DNA from: Syntrophus aciditrophicus SB
GTDB taxonomy: Bacteria; Desulfobacterota; Syntrophia; Syntrophales; Syntrophaceae
Direction of reading: 5' to 3'
Length of the DNA: 64,000 nucleotides
NCBI RefSeq assembly: GCF_000013405.1
Contig: NC_007759.1
Coordinates: 496,001-560,000 of the forward strand
Below are positions 23,120 to 34,739 of the stretch, piece after piece (the first letter of the stretch is position 1; each line of letters opens with the position of its first letter). The notes beneath the pieces were generated by a model. The model saw only the letters and a list, made by a program, of their open reading frames with translations, was not told the DNA's origin and made no database searches. The translations under genes were made by a program, and so were the position numbers.

Positions 23120-25087
23120 TTATGAATAAGACCTCAGCAAAATTGCAAGGCTCCCTTTTTTATTATTCAACCCCAACTTTTTTCTGATGTTTTCTCTGTG
23201 GAAGTCGATGACTCGCTTGTTTGAATTTAAGAGCTCAGCTATTTCCTTTGATGTCATGCCTTCTCTCACTAGAGATGCGATCTGGATTTCTGTTTTTGTA
23301 AGGTTCAGATAGTTGGAGGTCAATTTCTGTACAAAGGGTGAAGCGATTTCATCAAGATTGGTTTCTGCTATTTTAATGAGGCCTTTTTGAGTATCGTCCA
23401 ACGATGTATTCTTGAGTTTTTTCAGATAAGGCAGAACCTGTGCCTTGATATTGTCAAGGAATCTCTCTTTCAGTTTTTCTTGGTCATTTTCCATGGTATT
23501 CAGCAGGACCTTCATCGTGGTATTGACATCCGCCAGATTCTGCGCCTTAATGCTCAATTCTCTTTCGTTTTTTATTAAAGCTTCCTCCATTTGCTTTCGT
23601 TCAGCTACTTTTCCTAAACGGTCGGCAATGGCATCGATCAGATCACGCTCTTCTTTTAAAAAAGGTCCTCCGTCTCTCTGGGAAGTCTCTTTCAGATAGT
23701 GAACATTCACCGTGCCTGCCAGCCTGCCATTGACATTGATGTTAGCCGATATTTGCCATGGGGTCTCTTGAAAATTCGCAGTTTTAAATTCCAGATCTTC
23801 ATAGGTGATTCTTGCGCACATATGTTCCGGATAAGGGAAGCCGCTTGGCATGAGGTCGGCAGTATTCCGGAATATTTCCTCTATCGTATCTGCCTTCTCA
23901 ATCACATTAGCAATGGAATACAGGCAATTCAGTTCCTTGATTCGTTCCCGTAATTCCTCTTCTGCCCGTTTCCGCTCAGTGATGTCTTCCACGATTGCTT
24001 CCACATACTCGTCAACATCATTCTGTTTACTCACTTTCCGAGCCGCCACGTTGGCAAACATGATGCTCCCGTCCTTGCGGCGACAGGGCTGCTCTGAATA
24101 GATCCAGTTCTGTTGTTCCAAAATGCGAAGGGCTTTGTCATGATTGGCGGGATCGACCTGAATCTGGGTTGCTGGATCGGTGACGTTGAACATCAGGTCC
24201 TCCGGAGAATCATAGCCGAGCATCGACGCAAAGGCCTTGTTGACCCGGAGAATTCCATTTTCAGGGAGTGAGATTTGCAACATGCCGATTGAAGCATTTT
24301 CGAACAGGTTTCGATACAGTTTTTCGCTTCTCTCAAGAGCTTCCTCAGCCTTTTTTCTTTCGGTATTGTCAAATGCGGAACAACGATTCATCAGATAGTT
24401 GCCATTTTTATCAAAGATAGCCGTTGTATTGACAATCACATCAAGCACACTGCCATCCTTGCGAATCCATTTATCTTCGACATCACGCACCCATCCACGC
24501 TCTTTTAAAAGAGAAAAGTCCTGCTGAAATGCCTCTATTCCTTCAGGTGTCAGTAAATCAGTGATTTTCATCTTCCCGATGACCTCATCTCGGGAATAGC
24601 CCAGCCACCTCAGTTCCGTGTTATTAATACGGATAATCGTCCCGTCCTCCGCAAGAGAATGGTAACCACAGGGAGCGTTCTCGTACAGGTCGGTTATCTC
24701 GTCCAAGTGCTTCTTCTCTGTTTCTTCTAACCGTCTCTGCTCGGTAATATCTTCCACAAATCCGTCTGTGTAGTCTATCGTCCCATCGGGCTTGAGAACC
24801 TTACGAACCGCTACTTTTGCGATTATGATGCTACCGTCCTTTTGGAGAAGCGGCTGCTCGGCATAAAACCAGTCCCGCTCTTCCAGAGTTGCAAGCGTAT
24901 TGATGTAATTCTGAGGATCAGTGTGGATTTGGCTGGTGACATCAGTGATGGTTGAAATCATTTCTTCCGGCGATTCATATCCCAGCATCTTGGCGTAGGC
25001 GGCATTGACCCGAATCAGTCGGTTCTCAAGATGGGAATATTGGAACATGCCGATTGGAGAGTTGTCGAACAGGTTGCGATAAATTGC
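23120..25087 (-). pseudogene. PAS-LuxR regulator, 3' part (gene split by ISL3 element)
   Basis: Encodes about 650 residues: three more PAS/PAC modules (about 1-120, 125-245, 250-370 of this part), a GAF-like region (about 375-500, starting KELNCLYSIANVIE), a helical linker and a C-terminal LuxR-type HTH (LTKTEIQIASLVREGMTSKEIAELL). The gene is cut by the IS at 25088-26401. Joining the sides at the 8-bp target gives a continuous reading EAIYRNLFDNSPIGMFQY. The intact protein would be about 817 residues: a cytoplasmic multi-PAS sensor with direct DNA-binding output. An internal start could still make a truncated regulator. Confidence 0.85.
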
Positions 25088-26401
25088 GGTTCATCCGGTT
25101 AATGAGTACCTTGGTATTGCATAAAATCACATGGACATGGCAAGAGCCCTGTTGTTTGAGACCAATCGAACAACAAAAGGAGGCTCCAGACCATGTCCAC
25201 ATCGGTTCTTTATCATGCTTTCAATCTGAAGGGTATTACTTATAGAGCAACACGCTTCACGGGTGACGTCATCGAATATTTTGCAGATGTGAAAGAAGAA
25301 TACATTCGCTGTCCAAAGTGCGGGCAGCGTAAATTTACCTTTAAAGGACAGAAAACACGGAGTTTTCATCTGGGACCTATGGGGCGTAAGAGGTGTTTCC
25401 TTGTACTTTCCCTTCATCGAATAAAATGCAACACTTGCGACACCCTTTGGTGGCCCGATCTGCCTTTTATGGTGGGGAAGCATAGATTTGCCCGATCCTT
25501 TGCTCTGATTGTTCTGGATCTGCTTCGATTCGGCACGATTCGCTGGGTTGCCGATTACCTCGGCGTGGGTTGGGATATGATCAAAGAGATTCATAAGTTG
25601 AAATTGCAGCGCCTCTATCGGAACATTCCTCTTCATAAAGTTCGGTATATCGGTATCGATGAATTCAGCATCCGGAAAGGCCATGAGTACATGACCACGG
25701 TGATGGATCTCTCCGAAGGACGAATCCTTTACGCCACTGAGGGAAAGGGCAAGGAGGGGATTTTACCCTTCCTGAAAAAACTTGCACGCAAGGGGAAAAA
25801 ACTGCGAGCGGTTGCAATGGACATGGGAATTTCCTTCTTCTCCGCCGTCCGGGAAGCCCTTCCCAATATCGATGTCGTCTTCGACCGTTACCATATTATG
25901 GCTCTGATGAATCAAGGCATCGAAAACTTGCGCAGAAATCATCAGAAAGAACTTGATGATACCGGGAAGCAAACCCTCAAGGGAAACCGCTTCCTCCTTT
26001 TGCGAAATTATGATTCCCTGAAGCCGGACCATAAGGAACGTCTCGATGCCCTGATGCAGGCCAATCAGCCTCTATTCGTCATGCATTCCATGAAAGAGCA
26101 ACTCAGACTCTTCTGGGAAATACCGGAGTACGCCCAGGCTGTTACCTTCCTTGACACCTGGTGTAAGGACGCCATGCTGTCCGGAATCAAAGAACTCGTC
26201 AAAGTAGCCAAAACGCTCTCCGGATACAGGACTGCGATACTCAATTATTTCAAACATCACATTACAAATGCCGCCCTTGAGGGCACAAACAACAAGATTA
26301 AAACTTTAAAAAGGCAGGCCTATGGATTCCGGGATATGGAATACTTCAAACTCCGCCTCTATCACCTGCATACTCAGAGGTACTCATTAACCGGATGAAC
26401 C
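25088..26401 (+). mobile_element. ISL3-family insertion sequence, complete
   Basis: 1,314 bp with perfect 24-bp terminal inverted repeats (25088-25111 and 26378-26401, starting GGTTCATCCGG) and an exact 8-bp target duplication, TAAATTGC (25080-25087 and 26402-26409). It carries one intact transposase. Eight-base duplications are usual for ISL3. Perfect ends and an intact ORF indicate a recent, potentially active insertion. Confidence 0.95.
25193..26398 (+). CDS. ISL3-family transposase
   Basis: 401 residues, full length. The N-terminal zinc ribbon (CPKCGQR to CNTCDTLWW, about 38-85) is followed by an HTH region and the DDE_Tnp_ISL3 domain. The acidic residues appear in YIGIDEFSIRKG, VVFDRYHIM and NAALEGTNNKIK. 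GGAGG lies about ten bases before the ATG. The stop falls inside the right inverted repeat. It catalyses cut-and-paste movement of the element. Confidence 0.95.
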   Translation: MSTSVLYHAFNLKGITYRATRFTGDVIEYFADVKEEYIRCPKCGQRKFTFKGQKTRSFHLGPMGRKRCFLVLSLHRIKCNTCDTLWWPDLPFMVGKHRFARSFALIVLDLLRFGTIRWVADYLGVGWDMIKEIHKLKLQRLYRNIPLHKVRYIGIDEFSIRKGHEYMTTVMDLSEGRILYATEGKGKEGILPFLKKLARKGKKLRAVAMDMGISFFSAVREALPNIDVVFDRYHIMALMNQGIENLRRNHQKELDDTGKQTLKGNRFLLLRNYDSLKPDHKERLDALMQANQPLFVMHSMKEQLRLFWEIPEYAQAVTFLDTWCKDAMLSGIKELVKVAKTLSGYRTAILNYFKHHITNAALEGTNNKIKTLKRQAYGFRDMEYFKLRLYHLHTQRYSLTG

Positions 26402-26895
26402 TAAATTGCTTCACTTTCAGCAAGGGCCTCTTTTGCATGTTTCAGTTCCGTGATATCTGTGACAGTAGCTACAATGCCGCCCAAAGAACCGTCGGCTTTG
26501 TGAAAAAGGGCTTTATGGACTATGTCATTCCGCACATTGCCATCTTTGGGGCGGTTCTTTGCTTCATAAATCACACGGCCGCCTTTTTGAATCAATTCTT
26601 TATCCATTCTATGATGCAGTTCTATCATGTCTGCCGTCTCAATATCCTGAACATCTTTCCCCAAGATTCCTTCCTGTTGAACGTCCAAGTATTCCTCGAA
26701 AGCCTTGTTGCAGCCCATATACTTGCCATCAGGATCTTTATAAAAGACGGGATCGGGAACGTTATTGATAACTGCTTTGAGAAGATACACCTGTTGCTCC
26801 AATTCCTTTTGATGCAATTGGAGTTCATGGACGAGCCTCTTCAGTTCCCCTTCGTTCAAGGGGACAGCTACGCAGTCCTTCTTTCTATTCGTCAT
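26402..26895 (-). pseudogene. PAS-LuxR regulator, 5' part (gene split by ISL3 element)
   Basis: Encodes the first 164 residues: a charged start, a short coiled coil (about 15-40) and one PAS/PAC module (VINNVPDPVFYKDPDGKYMGCN to GIVATVTDITELKHAKEAL). AAAGGAC precedes the ATG. The frame runs into the IS right end after SEAI and resumes exactly on the other side of the element. See 23120-25087 for the rest. Confidence 0.85.
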
Positions 26896-27767: not shown

Positions 27768-28125
27768 CCTCGGTCCATTTTTCAGAGAAATTTGAAAAAG
27801 GCTCTTTTGAAATTACTCGCCACGGAAAGGCAGATGTATAAACGGAAGCGACCCTCAATTCCAGAGGCCACCACCCGGTCCTGTCTTCTTGGACCATTAC
27901 AAGAATTCTTGTCCGGACCTCGGGTTGCTTTTCAAAATGAAGCTGAAGGGCCTTTAAATTTGTGAGATTACTTTTAGTATGCGAAAAAGTAGGAACTGAA
28001 AAAGAGTTAATTTTTGTTGTGGGGAATCGGGATAAGGCGTGATTATTTGGGATGTTACGGGATAGATAATGCTTGGAGGTTAATTAAATGGAGGTTTGCG
28101 ACAGATTTTTGAAATTTAGTCATTT
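27768..28125. other. 358-base host/prophage junction region
   Basis: No gene. Sequence changes from host intergenic to the candidate prophage left end near 28,089. It includes a GGGAT-rich stretch (28021-28065). Confidence 0.4.
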
Positions 28126-28168
28126 TTAAGAAATTTTACATTTAGTTTGCGACACGTTTTTTTGATTT
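28089..28168. repeat. candidate prophage left end with two transposase-site-like repeats
   Basis: GTTTGCGACA followed by a T-run occurs at about 28093 and again at about 28144, in the same orientation, 51 bases apart. A TG dinucleotide at 28089-28090 precedes the first. Mu-type phages end in 5'-TG with several spaced transposase sites just inside. The right end is not in the window, so this cannot be confirmed by comparison. Confidence 0.35.
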
Positions 28169-28713
28169 TCTGTCTTTTTTTGTGCCTTTAGAAAGTAATC
28201 AAATACTCCAGCTAAGCGTAAAATGGCTAAGGCAGCGGCAACTGCAGAGAAGAGAGCATAAACAAAAGTCGTGAAACCGATAAAAGCAAATACGCCTGTC
28301 TTGACGTCCCATCCAAATGATATTAATGCAGCGAGAAGAGCAATGATCTGCAGAACAATGAAATGAATAAATGTGCCATTCACCTTCATGAAGGCAGATG
28401 GTTCACCATTGCCATCATCGCCAGCTAATAAATCCTGAAATTTTTCATTCCCGAAAGCCAGGAGCATTGCATAGCCACCTAAGGTAAATCCAAGTATATT
28501 GGGAATAACATCGACACAGATGCTGTACCATGCCCAGCCTTCATGCTCTATGGCCCAGACAGGGCGACACAATAAGGAAATTAGGATGGCGAAGTGAAAA
28601 TATGGTGAGCGCAGCAAGGCGCTGTACCCACCATATGATTTCCAATATATACCCCAGCTTTCACGCACGTGTTTATATTGGGTTAAAACTTCGTTTTGAT
28701 TTGAACGAGTCAT
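28126..28713 (-). CDS. accessory membrane protein paired with the DUF4747 protein
   Basis: 195 residues with four membrane helices (about 35-55, 65-88, 115-135, 140-165) and a charged Lys-rich tail. A polar loop (AFGNEKFQDLLAGDDGNGEPS) separates helices two and three. No family is recognised. It overlaps the DUF4747 gene by four bases, so the pair is a translationally coupled unit. It lies between the presumed phage left end and the repressor, where lysogeny-expressed cargo would sit. Confidence 0.7.
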   Translation of the reverse strand: MTRSNQNEVLTQYKHVRESWGIYWKSYGGYSALLRSPYFHFAILISLLCRPVWAIEHEGWAWYSICVDVIPNILGFTLGGYAMLLAFGNEKFQDLLAGDDGNGEPSAFMKVNGTFIHFIVLQIIALLAALISFGWDVKTGVFAFIGFTTFVYALFSAVAAALAILRLAGVFDYFLKAQKKTENQKNVSQTKCKIS

Positions 28714-29582
28714 TTATTCCCTTTAATTTTATGTAGCATAAATTCCGATGTTTCAAGAAGTGCGCTATGCTCCGTCTGTATTTCCGGATTATAAAGTGTC
28801 TGTTCTATGAAGGGATGTAAATCTGTTGATATTTCGACTTTCTGCTCGGCATCGTACCCTTTGGCTTCTATGCGCCCATTCGAAAGGGCCAGTTTCATCA
28901 GTGCCTGTGTTTCATCATCAGGTTTGATGCCAGCTTCATGCGTTGATGTTGCCGTTTGTTCAAGCTTCCTGATATTCATGTTATCTATCTTTTGCAATAG
29001 AGAAGCTGCCAAGCCGCCCAAGTCATCATCATTGGGCCGGTTGAACATAATGTGAAGCCTTGTTAGTCTTGGTATTGCCAATATTCTTTCAATAGCTTCA
29101 GATGTGGACTCTACAGACACATCAACTTGCCCGTATTTCGTGGCAATCGTATCATCTTTAAAGAGATCATTCATTAGTTTCATCATGTCTCCAGGAGAGA
29201 TATGACGACGGCTAAAGAAGAATCTATGGGATTTCGGGTAAAATACATAAGAGATCATTTTTAAATTTGGTTTTAGATGATCTGGTACGATCGGTCTGAT
29301 CTCGAGCTGCTCTTCGTCGATCGGAGTGTTGCTTTCGAGGTCAAGCCAGGGAGCTTTTGGGTCTATATTTAAGAAACGATACACCATTCCCCTGAGTATA
29401 GGAACATTATTGTGTCCTTCCTCTTCATAGAGAGATCCGATGATTCCCCAATCCGATCCTCTTATTTTCCCTGTGGCTTTAATTTTATGGGAATCTTTGA
29501 ATAGACTGATATAATTTTCTGAGGAATGCGGTTGTGTTGTAATGTTCAGCGCGGCAACTTTAAGTGTTTTTAAACGCGGCAT
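28710..29582 (-). CDS. DUF4747 family protein
   Basis: 290 residues from the Met at 29582 (GGAGG eight bases upstream; the frame is open to 29597). The sequence follows the DUF4747 pattern I recall: an N-terminal LKTLKVAALNITTQPHS, then VYRFLNIDPKAPWLDLE, FYPKSHRFFFSRRHISPGDM, VESTSEAIERIL and DDETQALMKLALSNGRIEAKG. The function of the family is unknown. It is coupled to a four-helix membrane protein and is transcribed with the repressor direction, so expression from the prophage is plausible. Confidence 0.75.
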   Translation of the reverse strand: MPRLKTLKVAALNITTQPHSSENYISLFKDSHKIKATGKIRGSDWGIIGSLYEEEGHNNVPILRGMVYRFLNIDPKAPWLDLESNTPIDEEQLEIRPIVPDHLKPNLKMISYVFYPKSHRFFFSRRHISPGDMMKLMNDLFKDDTIATKYGQVDVSVESTSEAIERILAIPRLTRLHIMFNRPNDDDLGGLAASLLQKIDNMNIRKLEQTATSTHEAGIKPDDETQALMKLALSNGRIEAKGYDAEQKVEISTDLHPFIEQTLYNPEIQTEHSALLETSEFMLHKIKGNK

Positions 29583-29646
29583 TAATACCTCCTGCATTGG
29601 TGTTTATCACAATTATCTTGATTCTCAGTGGTTTTATAAAAGCTTA

Positions 29647-29671
29647 AAGCGGCGTGATTGCCGCTTTTTTT
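29647..29671. terminator. hairpin terminator between repressor and accessory pair
   Basis: AAGCGGC (29647-29653) and GCCGCTT (29660-29666) flank a six-base loop. A T-run follows on the plus strand and a weaker T-rich tract on the minus strand. It could end repressor transcription leftward, leaving the DUF4747 pair to need its own promoter. Confidence 0.6.
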
Positions 29672-29775: not shown

Positions 29776-30546
29776 TTACGCGGCGCCTTCCCCGGCGGCA
29801 CCGGCTGGCCAGTCCGACTTTGTGAGCTTTTCCTTCAAGTAGGCGTTCTCTTTCCTGAGGATTCCGATCTCCTCCTTCAATGCCGTGTTTTCTTCTCTGA
29901 GCACTTTGATCTCGGCCTTGAGTCCGGCGTTTTCCTCCCGCAGCGTGACGATTTCGCTGTTCAGGCCCGCTATTTCCTCTTTCATTGCCGTCATCATGGA
30001 TTGCATTCTTTCCTCGAAACTGCGGCTTTTGGCCTCCATTTCGGCTTGCATCTGTTCAACATGGGCGATGCGTCCCCGATCCGCGACGGCATCGGCGAAG
30101 GAACGGATATTGAGGTGCAGTGCGGTAGCGTAGGGCGTGCCGGAGGACAGCACCTGAATGGCTAAGGTGACATCGTCCCCGATGCTTATTTCTCCGGTCT
30201 CTGCGGATGGAGCTGAAATCGTGCGGGGAACAGTCGGGGGTTCCGGGACTGGGGAGCCGGATTGTTCAGGAGGGCCGCAGACTTCCGGGTATTTCTGCCG
30301 GGCGCCAGGGAAGGGTTCGCCTTCACCGTGAAAGAGCCACATGGGGTTGAAATGGTAGTGTTCGACAATGCGTTCGATCACCTCGCCTTTTAGAAGCCCT
30401 TTCTTATTGCGATAGGCCGCCAGGGTGTCTTTGTTAGTCCCGAGGATCTTGGCGAGTTTTATGTCCGTGATCCCTTCATCCAGATCCCGATCGGCCTTGA
30501 TTGTCTCGATGGCCCAGGCGACTCTTTCGGTTAAGTTGGAAGACAT
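29776..30546 (-). CDS. CI-like phage repressor with C-terminal coiled coil
   Basis: 256 residues. The N-terminal HTH (about 5-75: ITDIKLAKILGTNKDTLAAY then YHFNPMWLFHGEG) is of the phage CI/HTH_19 type. A Pro-rich linker (about 85-115) follows, and residues about 165-245 are a strong heptad coiled coil (repeated LREENAxLKxEI). There is no S24 peptidase domain, so LexA-like self-cleavage is not expected; the coiled coil probably mediates oligomer formation. AAGGA lies five bases upstream. It is divergent from the early operon and next to four operator copies, fitting a Mu c-type lysogeny repressor. Confidence 0.85.
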   Translation of the reverse strand: MSSNLTERVAWAIETIKADRDLDEGITDIKLAKILGTNKDTLAAYRNKKGLLKGEVIERIVEHYHFNPMWLFHGEGEPFPGARQKYPEVCGPPEQSGSPVPEPPTVPRTISAPSAETGEISIGDDVTLAIQVLSSGTPYATALHLNIRSFADAVADRGRIAHVEQMQAEMEAKSRSFEERMQSMMTAMKEEIAGLNSEIVTLREENAGLKAEIKVLREENTALKEEIGILRKENAYLKEKLTKSDWPAGAAGEGAA

Positions 30547-30749: not shown

Positions 30750-30832
30750 CCCTGTAAAAGTTAACATGAAATTTAAACAAACAAAATAACCACCCCGGCG
30801 ACCAGGCCGGGAGAGGTAAAAAAGGACTTCAT

Positions 30833-31486
30833 ATGACTGAGACAGAAATCCTCCAATCCATCTCCGGCGGATTAATCGCCCTGGGAGGCGTAATCACCGG
30901 TATAATCCTTACCCTTGCCGCTCAATTTTCTGATCAAGTTTTTTCCAAAATAGGCCGTTTTCATTGTGTCCTTAGAAAATTCGTCGACACAAAGCTCTTT
31001 CCTCATCGCATCGAGAGACGTCTTGCAGCCGAGGAGTACATCTTCCTTTATCAGATCCGTTCTGAACTCCGTCTCGAACGGGCTCTCCATTCTATGCGCA
31101 ACAATGTCCCTAACATCGACCGCTTTAAAGATAAAGCAATGAGCTTTCTGGAGGACATCGTCGGACATGACCGCCCCGTGACGCCAGAGACAGTTTCGCA
31201 GTTGATCGACGAGGGACGCAAACTCCGTCAGTTCGGCTACGAGATGGCTTTCATCAGGAGGAGCACCCTGGGCGTTCCTTGCGATGTCGATGATGGTCCC
31301 GGTCTTCATAAGCAGCTTCCGGCATCCTTCCGCAGCCTCTTTGTATGCGACAAGGCACTCTTTGTAGAGGACCTCCTTGAATTTCTCCTTGCGCAAAAAG
31401 AGCTGAGTGAGAAGCGTCCCGAGGATGCCCAGGATAACGCCCAAAAGAGTGAACAAACCGGTAACAACGTTTTGAGTCATCAGTAA
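30833..31486 (+). CDS. first early-operon protein, N-terminal membrane anchor (overlaps an antisense ORF)
   Basis: 217 residues with AAGGA six bases before the ATG, directly downstream of the early promoter and 23 bases before the Ner-like gene. A hydrophobic helix at about 9-32 (GGLIALGGVITGIILTLA) is followed by a mostly helical soluble part. The family is unknown. A 202-codon ORF lies on the opposite strand over almost the same bases (30872-31480). Promoter, ribosome site and operon order favour this strand; protein composition alone does not decide. Confidence 0.5.
   Translation: MTETEILQSISGGLIALGGVITGIILTLAAQFSDQVFSKIGRFHCVLRKFVDTKLFPHRIERRLAAEEYIFLYQIRSELRLERALHSMRNNVPNIDRFKDKAMSFLEDIVGHDRPVTPETVSQLIDEGRKLRQFGYEMAFIRRSTLGVPCDVDDGPGLHKQLPASFRSLFVCDKALFVEDLLEFLLAQKELSEKRPEDAQDNAQKSEQTGNNVLSHQ
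30872..31480 (-). CDS. antisense alternative ORF with membrane anchor
   Basis: 202 residues on the minus strand. It has a convincing N-terminal membrane helix (GLFTLLGVILGILGTLLTQLF) followed by a charged helical domain, a common layout for small phage membrane proteins. AAAGGG lies about 11 bases before the ATG. G+C at third positions is similar in both strands' frames (hand counts near 60 and 55 percent), so codon use does not choose between them. If real, it is expressed toward the repressor. Confidence 0.4.
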   Translation of the reverse strand: MTQNVVTGLFTLLGVILGILGTLLTQLFLRKEKFKEVLYKECLVAYKEAAEGCRKLLMKTGTIIDIARNAQGAPPDESHLVAELTEFASLVDQLRNCLWRHGAVMSDDVLQKAHCFIFKAVDVRDIVAHRMESPFETEFRTDLIKEDVLLGCKTSLDAMRKELCVDEFSKDTMKTAYFGKNLIRKLSGKGKDYTGDYASQGD

Positions 31487-31509: not shown

Positions 31510-31728
31510 ATGAAACCAAACCAGATAAAGGCCGCCCTGGCGGAGAGAGGGATTCGGCAGCGGGAGATCGCCCGCGAGTGTTCCGTTACGGATACCCAGG
31601 TCAGCCGGGTCATCAAGCAGTGCGACTTCATAGTCTCCACCAAGGTGGCGAAGGCTATCGCAAAACGGCTCGGCATGCCACTGGAGAAGGTTTTCCCGGC
31701 GTACCGACCGAAAAAACAGGCCGCGTAA
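31510..31728 (+). CDS. Ner-like/XRE small DNA-binding protein
   Basis: 72 residues, AAGGAG nine bases upstream. It is essentially one HTH: IKAALAERGIRQREIARECSV (first helices), then TDTQVSRVIKQCD (recognition helix) and VAKAIAKRLGMPLEKVFP. Size and position as an early HTH gene just right of the repressor match Mu Ner, which turns down early and repressor transcription. It has no other domain. Confidence 0.75.
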   Translation: MKPNQIKAALAERGIRQREIARECSVTDTQVSRVIKQCDFIVSTKVAKAIAKRLGMPLEKVFPAYRPKKQAA

Positions 31729-32474: not shown

Positions 32475-34739
32475 ATGGGCTCCTTAACGGTGGACTGCAC
32501 AAAAGACCGGTTCTCGGCAAAGGAACTGGCTGTCATCATGGGCATATCATGGCAGGCGATCCAGAAGCGGGCGGATCAGGAAGGCTGGCCTTGTGAAATG
32601 GAAACGGGCAGAGGCGGCAAAAGGAAGCTTTTTCGCCGCGCCGTCCTCCCCGTCGATTGGCAGGCCCGCATCGCCAGACAGCGCGCCGCCCAGGCGGCCG
32701 CCGCCATCGCCCCCGAGTCTCCGGAAATGGCCGGCTATCGGGCCGCCCGGAACTATCTGGAAGACCTGGAAAGGGAGAAGGAAGAGAAACGCCTTATAAA
32801 GGAGAGGGGGCTGGTCGAATTCGCCCGGTTGCCGGAGGCCCGGAAACGGGAGGCGGAGGCCTGCTGGGAGGTCCTCAAGGCGAAAGACGCCTTCATCGAG
32901 GCCGGCGGTTTCGGAAGGATACAGGGAGCAGCCCTGTTCTGCGCCCAGTTCAATGAGGGCAAAATTCCCCTGGACGACGGGATTGTCGAGATCGTCAACA
33001 AGACCGGCAAGCTCCATCCCTCCACCCTGTACCGCTGGGAGGAGAAATACGAGACGCAGGGGCTCGCCGGCCTGGCCTGGCATTACGGGAAGAACGCAGG
33101 GCGCACGCTGCTGACGCCGGACATGCAGGACTTCATCCGCGCGATGATCCTGGAGCACAACCGGGTTTCGGTTCCCAAACTCATGGCGGGCCTGGAGGCG
33201 CGGTTTGCCGGGCAGGAGATCCCCGCTTCCCACGTCGTCTGGAGATGGGCGTCCCGCTGGCGGGACGAGAACCGCGTGCTGCTTTTATCCATTCACAATC
33301 CGGACGAGTGGAAATCGAGGTACGGCGCCGCGTTCGGCAGCGCCTCCGCCTCGGTGGGCCGCCTCAACCAGTTGTGGGAATCGGATGCCACCCCCGGCGA
33401 CATCATGCTCGCCGAAGGGCGGCACACGGTGATCGGAATGATCGACGTCTGGAGCCGCCGGGCGAAGGTACTGGTCGTGCCGTCATCGAAGGCCGTGGCC
33501 ATCGCGGCGCTTCTGCGGCGCTGCCTGCTGGACTGGGGCGTTCCCGAAGTCCTGCGGACGGACAACGGCAAGGACTTCACCGCCCGCCACATGACGCGCG
33601 TCCTGGAATCCCTGGAAATAGAACAGGATCTCTGCCCTCCCTTCACCCCAGAAATGAAGCCCCACATCGAACGCTTCTTCCATACCTTCTCTCACGGCAT
33701 CGTGGAACTGCTCCCCGGCTATATAGGCCACAACGTGGCCCAGCGCAAGGCCATCGAGTCCCGGAAGTCTTTTGCCGAGCGCCTGATGAAGAAGGGCGCC
33801 GTCCTGGATGTGAAGCTTGCCGCCCGGGAGTTCCAGGAGATCTGCGACCGCTGGATCGAGTCGGTCTATCATCAGGATCCTCACGGCTCCCTGGACGGGA
33901 AGCGCCCCGCGGAGATGGTCCGCTCCTGGACGGCCCCGGTGCGGAGGATCGCAGACGAGCGGGCCCTGGATGTGCTGCTCGCCCCCGCCCCGCAGGACGG
34001 CGGCGTCCGGAAGGTGGGCAAGAAGGGCGTGACGGTCAACCGGAGGCATTACGTCAACACGGCCCTGATCGGTTACGAGGATCAGTCCGTTCAGGTGCTG
34101 CTCGATTACGCCGATGTGGGGAAGGCCTACATCTTCGCCGCTTCCGGGGAGTATGTCTGCACGGCGGTGGATCCGGACTGGAGCGGCATTTCCGCCGCCG
34201 ATCTGGCGAGCCACGCGAAACACACGCAGAAGAAGGCCTACGCCGAAATGCGCAAGGAAGCCCGGAAGCTGATCCGGGAACACAAGATCGCCCTCGTCCC
34301 CGAAGACATCCTGGCGCACCGGGAGAGCCTTCTTGCGAACGTCGAGGAACTGCCTCAAAAGACGGTGGAATATTCCACGCCCGCCCTGAAGGAGGCCGCC
34401 TTTGCCGTGGCCGATGCCGACCGGACGCCCAACGCACAGGCTCTTGCCGGCAGGATCGAGCTGCCGCCTGAGGTCCTTGAATACGAGGAACGGCAGAAGA
34501 AGGTGGTCGACCTCCGGCAGAAGCGGCGGGAGCGACGGGTCTTCGCGAACAACGAAGAGATATACTGTTGGATTCTGGACCGGATCAAGGCCGGCACAGT
34601 CACGGAAACCCAGAAGCAGTGGAAGAAGGAATACGAAGCCTGGCAGGAAACCGAGGCCGGGAAAGCGAGAAGGAAGCCCTTCACCAGCACCATTGGAATA
34701 CGCGCACTGACAGGGGAAACCGCCGAGGCGGCCCTGTGA
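32475..34739 (+). CDS. Mu-type transposase A (DDE recombinase)
   Basis: 754 residues, somewhat longer than Mu A. The N-terminal Mu-type DNA-binding HTH (SAKELAVIMGISWQAIQKRA, about 14-33) is followed by end-binding helical domains (about 100-285) and an RNase H-like catalytic core. The catalytic triad is D304 (WESDATPGD), D363 (RTDNGKDF) and E399 (KPHIERFF), with 35 residues between the second and third, as in DDE(35). The C-terminal part contains the Mu-type beta-barrel and a basic tail. It joins phage ends to target DNA for integration and replication. Confidence 0.95.
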   Translation: MGSLTVDCTKDRFSAKELAVIMGISWQAIQKRADQEGWPCEMETGRGGKRKLFRRAVLPVDWQARIARQRAAQAAAAIAPESPEMAGYRAARNYLEDLEREKEEKRLIKERGLVEFARLPEARKREAEACWEVLKAKDAFIEAGGFGRIQGAALFCAQFNEGKIPLDDGIVEIVNKTGKLHPSTLYRWEEKYETQGLAGLAWHYGKNAGRTLLTPDMQDFIRAMILEHNRVSVPKLMAGLEARFAGQEIPASHVVWRWASRWRDENRVLLLSIHNPDEWKSRYGAAFGSASASVGRLNQLWESDATPGDIMLAEGRHTVIGMIDVWSRRAKVLVVPSSKAVAIAALLRRCLLDWGVPEVLRTDNGKDFTARHMTRVLESLEIEQDLCPPFTPEMKPHIERFFHTFSHGIVELLPGYIGHNVAQRKAIESRKSFAERLMKKGAVLDVKLAAREFQEICDRWIESVYHQDPHGSLDGKRPAEMVRSWTAPVRRIADERALDVLLAPAPQDGGVRKVGKKGVTVNRRHYVNTALIGYEDQSVQVLLDYADVGKAYIFAASGEYVCTAVDPDWSGISAADLASHAKHTQKKAYAEMRKEARKLIREHKIALVPEDILAHRESLLANVEELPQKTVEYSTPALKEAAFAVADADRTPNAQALAGRIELPPEVLEYEERQKKVVDLRQKRRERRVFANNEEIYCWILDRIKAGTVTETQKQWKKEYEAWQETEAGKARRKPFTSTIGIRALTGETAEAAL

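Follow-up and report, generated by a model that had tools for sequence, protein, structure and literature searches.

A DUF4747 gene and a four-helix membrane protein gene at the left edge of a Mu-like prophage: a likely Rex-type superinfection-exclusion cassette

What function is served by two overlapping genes lodged between the left tip of a prophage and its repressor gene? The genes reside in a stretch of 64,000 nucleotides of Syntrophus aciditrophicus SB DNA, analysed at its full length and called here the window. A preliminary description had viewed them as a candidate defence or exclusion system, made by a DUF4747 protein and a membrane partner. By analogy with proven gene pairs of the same layout, the two genes, which a Mu-like prophage carries as cargo, likely constitute a Rex-type cassette for superinfection exclusion (abortive infection). 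Features of the region are listed in Table 1.

Table 1. Features of the cassette and of the prophage which hosts it (window coordinates)
Feature	Position	Strand	Remarks
Mu-like prophage	27961–66810 (38.85 kb)	+	inverted tips, 5-bp duplication, Mu-type transposase; right tip beyond the window, at 2810 of locus L071
5-bp target duplication AAATT	27956–27960 (left); 66811–66815 (right)		right copy beyond the window (L071)
End-site-like repeat ATTTAGTTTGCGACACG	28140–28157	+	inverted copy at the right end, 66761
Partner gene	28126–28713	-	195 aa, four-helix membrane protein; proposed RexB-like effector, by analogy
Stop/start overlap ATGA, DUF4747 gene/partner gene	28710–28713	-	
DUF4747 gene	28710–29582	-	290 aa; proposed infection sensor, predicted RexA/RdgC fold
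Promoter-like site 5' of the DUF4747 gene	29612–29640	-	9/12; no more such sites in the scan than expected by chance
Hairpin, interval between repressor gene and cassette	29646–29667		terminator-like mainly for + transcripts
Repressor-like HTH protein	29776–30546	-	same direction as the cassette
Ner/Cro-like HTH protein	31510–31728	+	start of the lytic operon
Mu-type transposase	32475–34739	+	rve, Mu-transpos_C; phrog_310

Both open reading frames are present and share the ATGA tetranucleotide, as first described. The assignment of the first gene to DUF4747 is firm: its product matches PF15931 over the entire model (positions 1–257 of 257, residues 13–264 of the protein), with an E value of 4.8e-105 and 351 bits against a Pfam cut-off of 27. 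A second possible ATG for this gene is found at 29597. The protein falls in phrog_10040 and the partner in phrog_20580 (E 4e-26), both phage families without known function. The partner was assigned to no family in a Pfam search, neither protein was matched in NCBIfam, and neither was matched by the PADLOC 2023 defence models at E values up to 10.

The left end of the prophage, only presumed at the outset, is real. When inverted tips flanked by a 5-bp target duplication were sought, a single solution stood out: the left tip begins with TGTGAGATTACTTTTAG, the matching inverted tip is found at 66810, and AAATT is present on both sides. When the tips are compared (TGTGAGATTACTTTTAGTATGCGAAA at 27961, TGTCATTTTACTTTTATTTTGCGACT at 66810 as reverse complement), 19 of 26 residues are identical. 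The distance from the left tip to the end of the partner gene is thus 165 bp, and the space from the tip to the repressor gene is occupied by the cassette alone, transcribed in the repressor direction as had been proposed. The end-site-like repeat near the left tip is placed in the final codons of the membrane protein gene (VSQTK), so that coding and transposition signals overlap. The view of the cassette as cargo is borne out by base composition: the two genes are regarded as imported because they measure 41.1% GC within a prophage of 57.9% GC, a value falling in the lowest 0.5% of prophage segments of the same size. Third-position GC is 38–39% in the cassette, as against 67–81% in the repressor, portal and transposase genes. 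The hairpin listed in Table 1 separates the cassette from the repressor gene, and is counted against the Rex-type reading.

A recurrent partner of DUF4747 genes was sought in both directions. In the forward search, PF15931 was looked for in about 395 genomes from each of three phyla, and in two plasmids. Fifteen intact DUF4747 genes were counted, including the one in the window and excluding two found via the partner, and the partner is located directly 3' in all of them (15/15). The reverse search relied on the partner and its LGFxLGGYA motif, since the DUF4747 alignment is too divergent to scan with. DUF4747 was found directly upstream in 43 of 44 loci in a first scan with the partner alignment alone, and in 71 of 74 loci (59 non-redundant) in a larger one; in the partner-search loci, gaps between the paired genes range from -52 to +32 nt. 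The pairing is obligate, far beyond chance. The family is rare, being found in 1–2% of genomes, and in 13 of 5,426 E. coli genomes. Searches by tblastn with the DUF4747 and partner proteins of the window gave no match in annotated phage records, and two distant matches in plasmids for the DUF4747 protein; a scan of viral contigs with single proteins found none.

Small phage membrane proteins often block DNA entry, and the prophage location would suit a membrane protein which halts the DNA of superinfecting phages at the envelope, without abortive infection. A conserved partner of RexA fold would be superfluous to such a block, yet the pair is obligate, and this explanation is very improbable.

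DUF4747 is missing in three of the 74 partner loci. L042 is cut by a contig end. L084 and L085 (9925–10579) are phages closely related to L086 (9000–10579), in which DUF4747 has been deleted at a short GATA-type repeat. Only the last codons of the gene remain, and the membrane ORF is open and about 97% identical. An intact membrane gene is expected after loss of DUF4747 if the partner is harmless until activated. A coupled pair of small genes in a mobile element may also call to mind an addiction module, in which the membrane protein would be the toxin and DUF4747 the antitoxin. The persistence of the membrane gene in L084 and L085 led us to reject it; the predicted RexA fold and the phage contexts fit a sensor better, and a toxin-antitoxin pair is hardly credible.

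Enrichment of the pair in prophages and defence islands had been suggested as a further check. The pair recurs in prophages, in P4 satellites and beside restriction genes, in a tally made without a random-gene baseline. The outcome runs opposite to the refuting condition set in the preliminary description, a DUF4747 family lacking both a recurrent partner and a prophage or defence-island setting. In partner-search loci, phage repressors are the commonest upstream neighbours, followed by Psu, Mor and others, and integrases are found among the downstream neighbours. In several of the loci, which are Mu-like phages, the pair resides between early genes and the portal gene; the left edge is thus not the sole slot. 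The repressor-side slot, proposed as the classical place for such cargo, holds for the prophage in the window, but not as the only location. In E. coli NCTC10973 the pair is inserted exactly between psu and the integrase gene of a P4-like satellite at ssrA, and the psu-int interval of P4 satellites is a known defence hotspot (PMC9122126). In L109 (3860–9860), from an unselected genome, a complete type I restriction-modification operon is followed on the same strand by the pair, 48 bp after the specificity gene. In other unselected genomes, a mad3-like gene precedes the pair (L113), or a HEC-06/Orf5-like gene is found at a distance of up to about 4 kb (L116); repressor, transposase, portal, terminase and integrase genes are also neighbours in such genomes.

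These contexts bear on whether the main role of the pair is to tune the lysis-lysogeny switch of its own prophage instead of keeping other phages out. On its own, RexA binds DNA and tilts the lambda switch in the direction of lysis (PMC11077077), and the cassette adjoins the repressor gene. Homologous pairs are found in P4 satellites, in plasmids, behind restriction genes and at sites distant from any repressor, and a membrane partner is unnecessary for a switch role, which makes tuning quite improbable as the main function.

The structure of the DUF4747 protein was modelled from 38 relatives (pLDDT 92.4, pTM 0.89). The best match to a solved structure in Foldseek is lambda RexA (8twq, chain 8twq_B; E 3e-5, prob 0.99), followed by E. 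coli RdgC (6e-4), and then by CENP-N/L. The same folds are named as relatives of RexA in the paper describing the RexA structure (PMC11077077). VIA-align of the model with RexA gave a Z score of 7.7 and an rmsd of 4.4 over 136 residues, a middling result tied with CENP-N. TM-scores are low, as expected if two domains differ in orientation. The middling Z score and the low TM-scores indicate that the model and RexA have a domain architecture in common but are not close in structure. As modelled, the DUF4747 protein has the RexA/RdgC fold. A sequence search of solved structures with the DUF4747 profile found nothing beyond chance-level matches to odorant-binding proteins.

Four membrane helices had been attributed to the partner. 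A hydropathy scan of the single sequence reveals three strong helices only, but four peaks are seen in the family average (at about 40–46, 70–82, 118–130 and 148–163), and four membrane helices, in agreement with the family profile, are found in the AlphaFold2 model (pLDDT 93). N- and C-termini are basic, and a central loop (88–106) separates TM2 from TM3. Strongly conserved residues are LGFxLGGYA in TM2 and N..F.HF...Q in TM3, with G75 and Q122 invariant. Matches of the model in the PDB (Orai, NINJ1, vinculin-type bundles) all lie within the background of helical proteins and are uninformative. A holin was considered as well, and discarded because the gene shares the strand of the repressor gene and adjoins no lysis gene.

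The layout of the cassette is that of lambda RexAB. In both, a gene pair is found at the repressor side and runs in the repressor direction (cI-rexA-rexB in lambda), and a cytoplasmic protein is encoded first, a four-helix membrane protein second. The partner is longer than RexB (195 versus 144 aa), and RexA and RexB (PF15969 and PF15968) are Pfam families separate from DUF4747. No match to PF15969 or PF15968 was found in a Pfam search of the cassette proteins, the first of which gives DUF4747 only; lambda RexA does not match PF15931, and hhalign was negative for both the DUF4747 alignment versus RexA and the partner alignment versus RexB.

Other exclusion pairs feature the same architecture. 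CarolAnn gp44/gp43, from a Gordonia phage, and Sbash gp30/gp31, from a Mycobacterium phage, have a four-helix second protein, and are proven exclusion pairs in which both genes are required; the excluded phage itself makes the proteins which activate them (PMC6426606, PMC6426596). Defence is lost when central-loop residues of Sbash gp31 are substituted. The CarolAnn pair adjoins the repressor gene in the same direction (45-44-43), as the cassette does, and gp44 measures 370 aa versus 290 aa for the DUF4747 protein. In Pseudomonas putida, RexABpp (PP_5643-5644), here compared by its published description, is a prophage pair made by a RexA-like DNA-binding protein and a four-helix effector. RexApp binds DNA, and its overproduction leads RexBpp to permeabilise the membrane (PMC12894663).

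The presence of DUF4747 in CarolAnn gp44, Sbash gp30, Butters gp30 and RexA has been claimed in print on weak HHpred matches. CarolAnn gp44 (L057, 10976–12088) and Butters gp30 (L058, 4689–5900) do not match PF15931 at E values up to 10. Comparisons by hhalign with the CarolAnn, Sbash and Sejanus families were negative for both the DUF4747 protein and the partner, and profile comparison with the single Butters proteins gave no sequence relation. The true DUF4747 family is thus tied to RexA by predicted fold and gene architecture, not by detectable sequence. The lack of detectable similarity to RexA/RexB and to the CarolAnn pair would mark a separate lineage working like them, and the best reading is that the DUF4747 pair is Rex-type by its working, outside the RexA/RexB sequence families.

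The statement that DUF4747 has no functional lead no longer stands. In one 2026 report, 'DUF4747/CarolAnn' genes are already tied to exclusion, their operons being listed, apparently without an assay, as immune operons beside CapK/CapS, with 17 cases adjoining a DNA-damage-controlled regulator (PMC13373217). The neighbours of the cassette in the window are the repressor gene and the prophage tip, not capK/capS. The literature searched holds no defence assay for any protein matching PF15931.

The early view of a sensor-effector pair fits the predicted fold of the DUF4747 protein and the existence of proven Rex-type pairs of the same layout. The sequence of events proposed here is modelled on those pairs. 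A lysogen would make both proteins, and both would be silent. The DUF4747 protein is expected to dimerise and to hold DNA without sequence preference. On entry of a rival phage, it would sense a product of the infection, be it a phage protein or an intermediate of replication or recombination, and would then activate the four-helix partner, probably via its central cytoplasmic loop. The partner would open or damage the inner membrane, and the resulting loss of energy would stop growth before progeny of the rival phage are formed.

Roles may be reversed. In the Mycobacterium phage Butters, the gp30/gp31 pair has the layout of the cassette but the roles of the two proteins are reported as reversed, and gp30 by itself accounts for most of the defence (PMC7542560). 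By this example, the DUF4747 protein would be the antiviral agent, restrained by the membrane protein until infection. Both genes are required in the lambda, CarolAnn, Sbash and P. putida pairs, where the membrane protein is the effector. L084 and L085 lost DUF4747, not the membrane gene, and a lone restrainer would have little reason to persist. An arrangement of the Butters type is unlikely for the cassette, and the DUF4747 protein is preferred as sensor, the membrane protein as effector.

A broader view is advanced tentatively, and is somewhat doubtful. On more than one occasion, DNA-holding proteins of RdgC/RexA fold may have become linked with unrelated four-helix membrane effectors, and the DUF4747 pair may be an independent and widespread lineage of DNA-sensing, membrane-effector immunity, mobile among Mu-like phages, P4 satellites, plasmids and restriction islands. 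Only five RexAB-like systems are described in a 2026 paper (PMC12894663). If DUF4747 pairs act alike, Rex-type exclusion would be far more widespread, and would include P4 satellites and restriction islands. DUF4747, a domain of unknown function in several phyla, gains a predicted fold and a testable role. Since E. coli holds homologous pairs, the activation of Rex-type systems, a long-open question, becomes approachable in a laboratory strain.

The entire left module of the prophage, immunity plus cargo, appears exchangeable among related phages. L122 is a close relative, about 89% identical in early-region DNA. Its similarity stops at position 30775 of the window, just 5' of the repressor gene; beyond that point L122 (1–607) has a different immunity region, and no relative of the window repressor was found in it; both the break and the missing repressor point to an exchangeable module. 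The sequence of L122 stops short of its left tip, and no sister copy of the prophage with other cargo was found in the same or related genomes.

Two long ORFs, 30872–31480 on the minus strand and 30833–31486 on the plus strand, overlap almost completely and adjoin the repressor gene. When the minus ORF is compared with L122, 11 of 15 substitutions fall at third positions of its frame, and amino-acid changes are 5 of 203 in the minus ORF versus 16 of 218 in the plus ORF. The third-position bias and the fewer changes indicate that, of the two, the minus-strand ORF is probably the genuine gene; its product features a membrane helix at the N-terminus. Overlapping exclusion genes are known at the corresponding place in Pseudomonas phage Fc02 (PMC9936078), and by analogy the minus-strand ORF may be a second lysogeny gene.

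Outside the prophage, an ISL3-family transposase gene (25193–26398, plus strand) is located between two minus-strand ORFs, 23120–25048 and 26401–26895. The latter encodes a PAS protein, and the former holds repeated, similar PAS-like stretches; the two ORFs may be parts of a single sensor gene interrupted by the ISL3 element.
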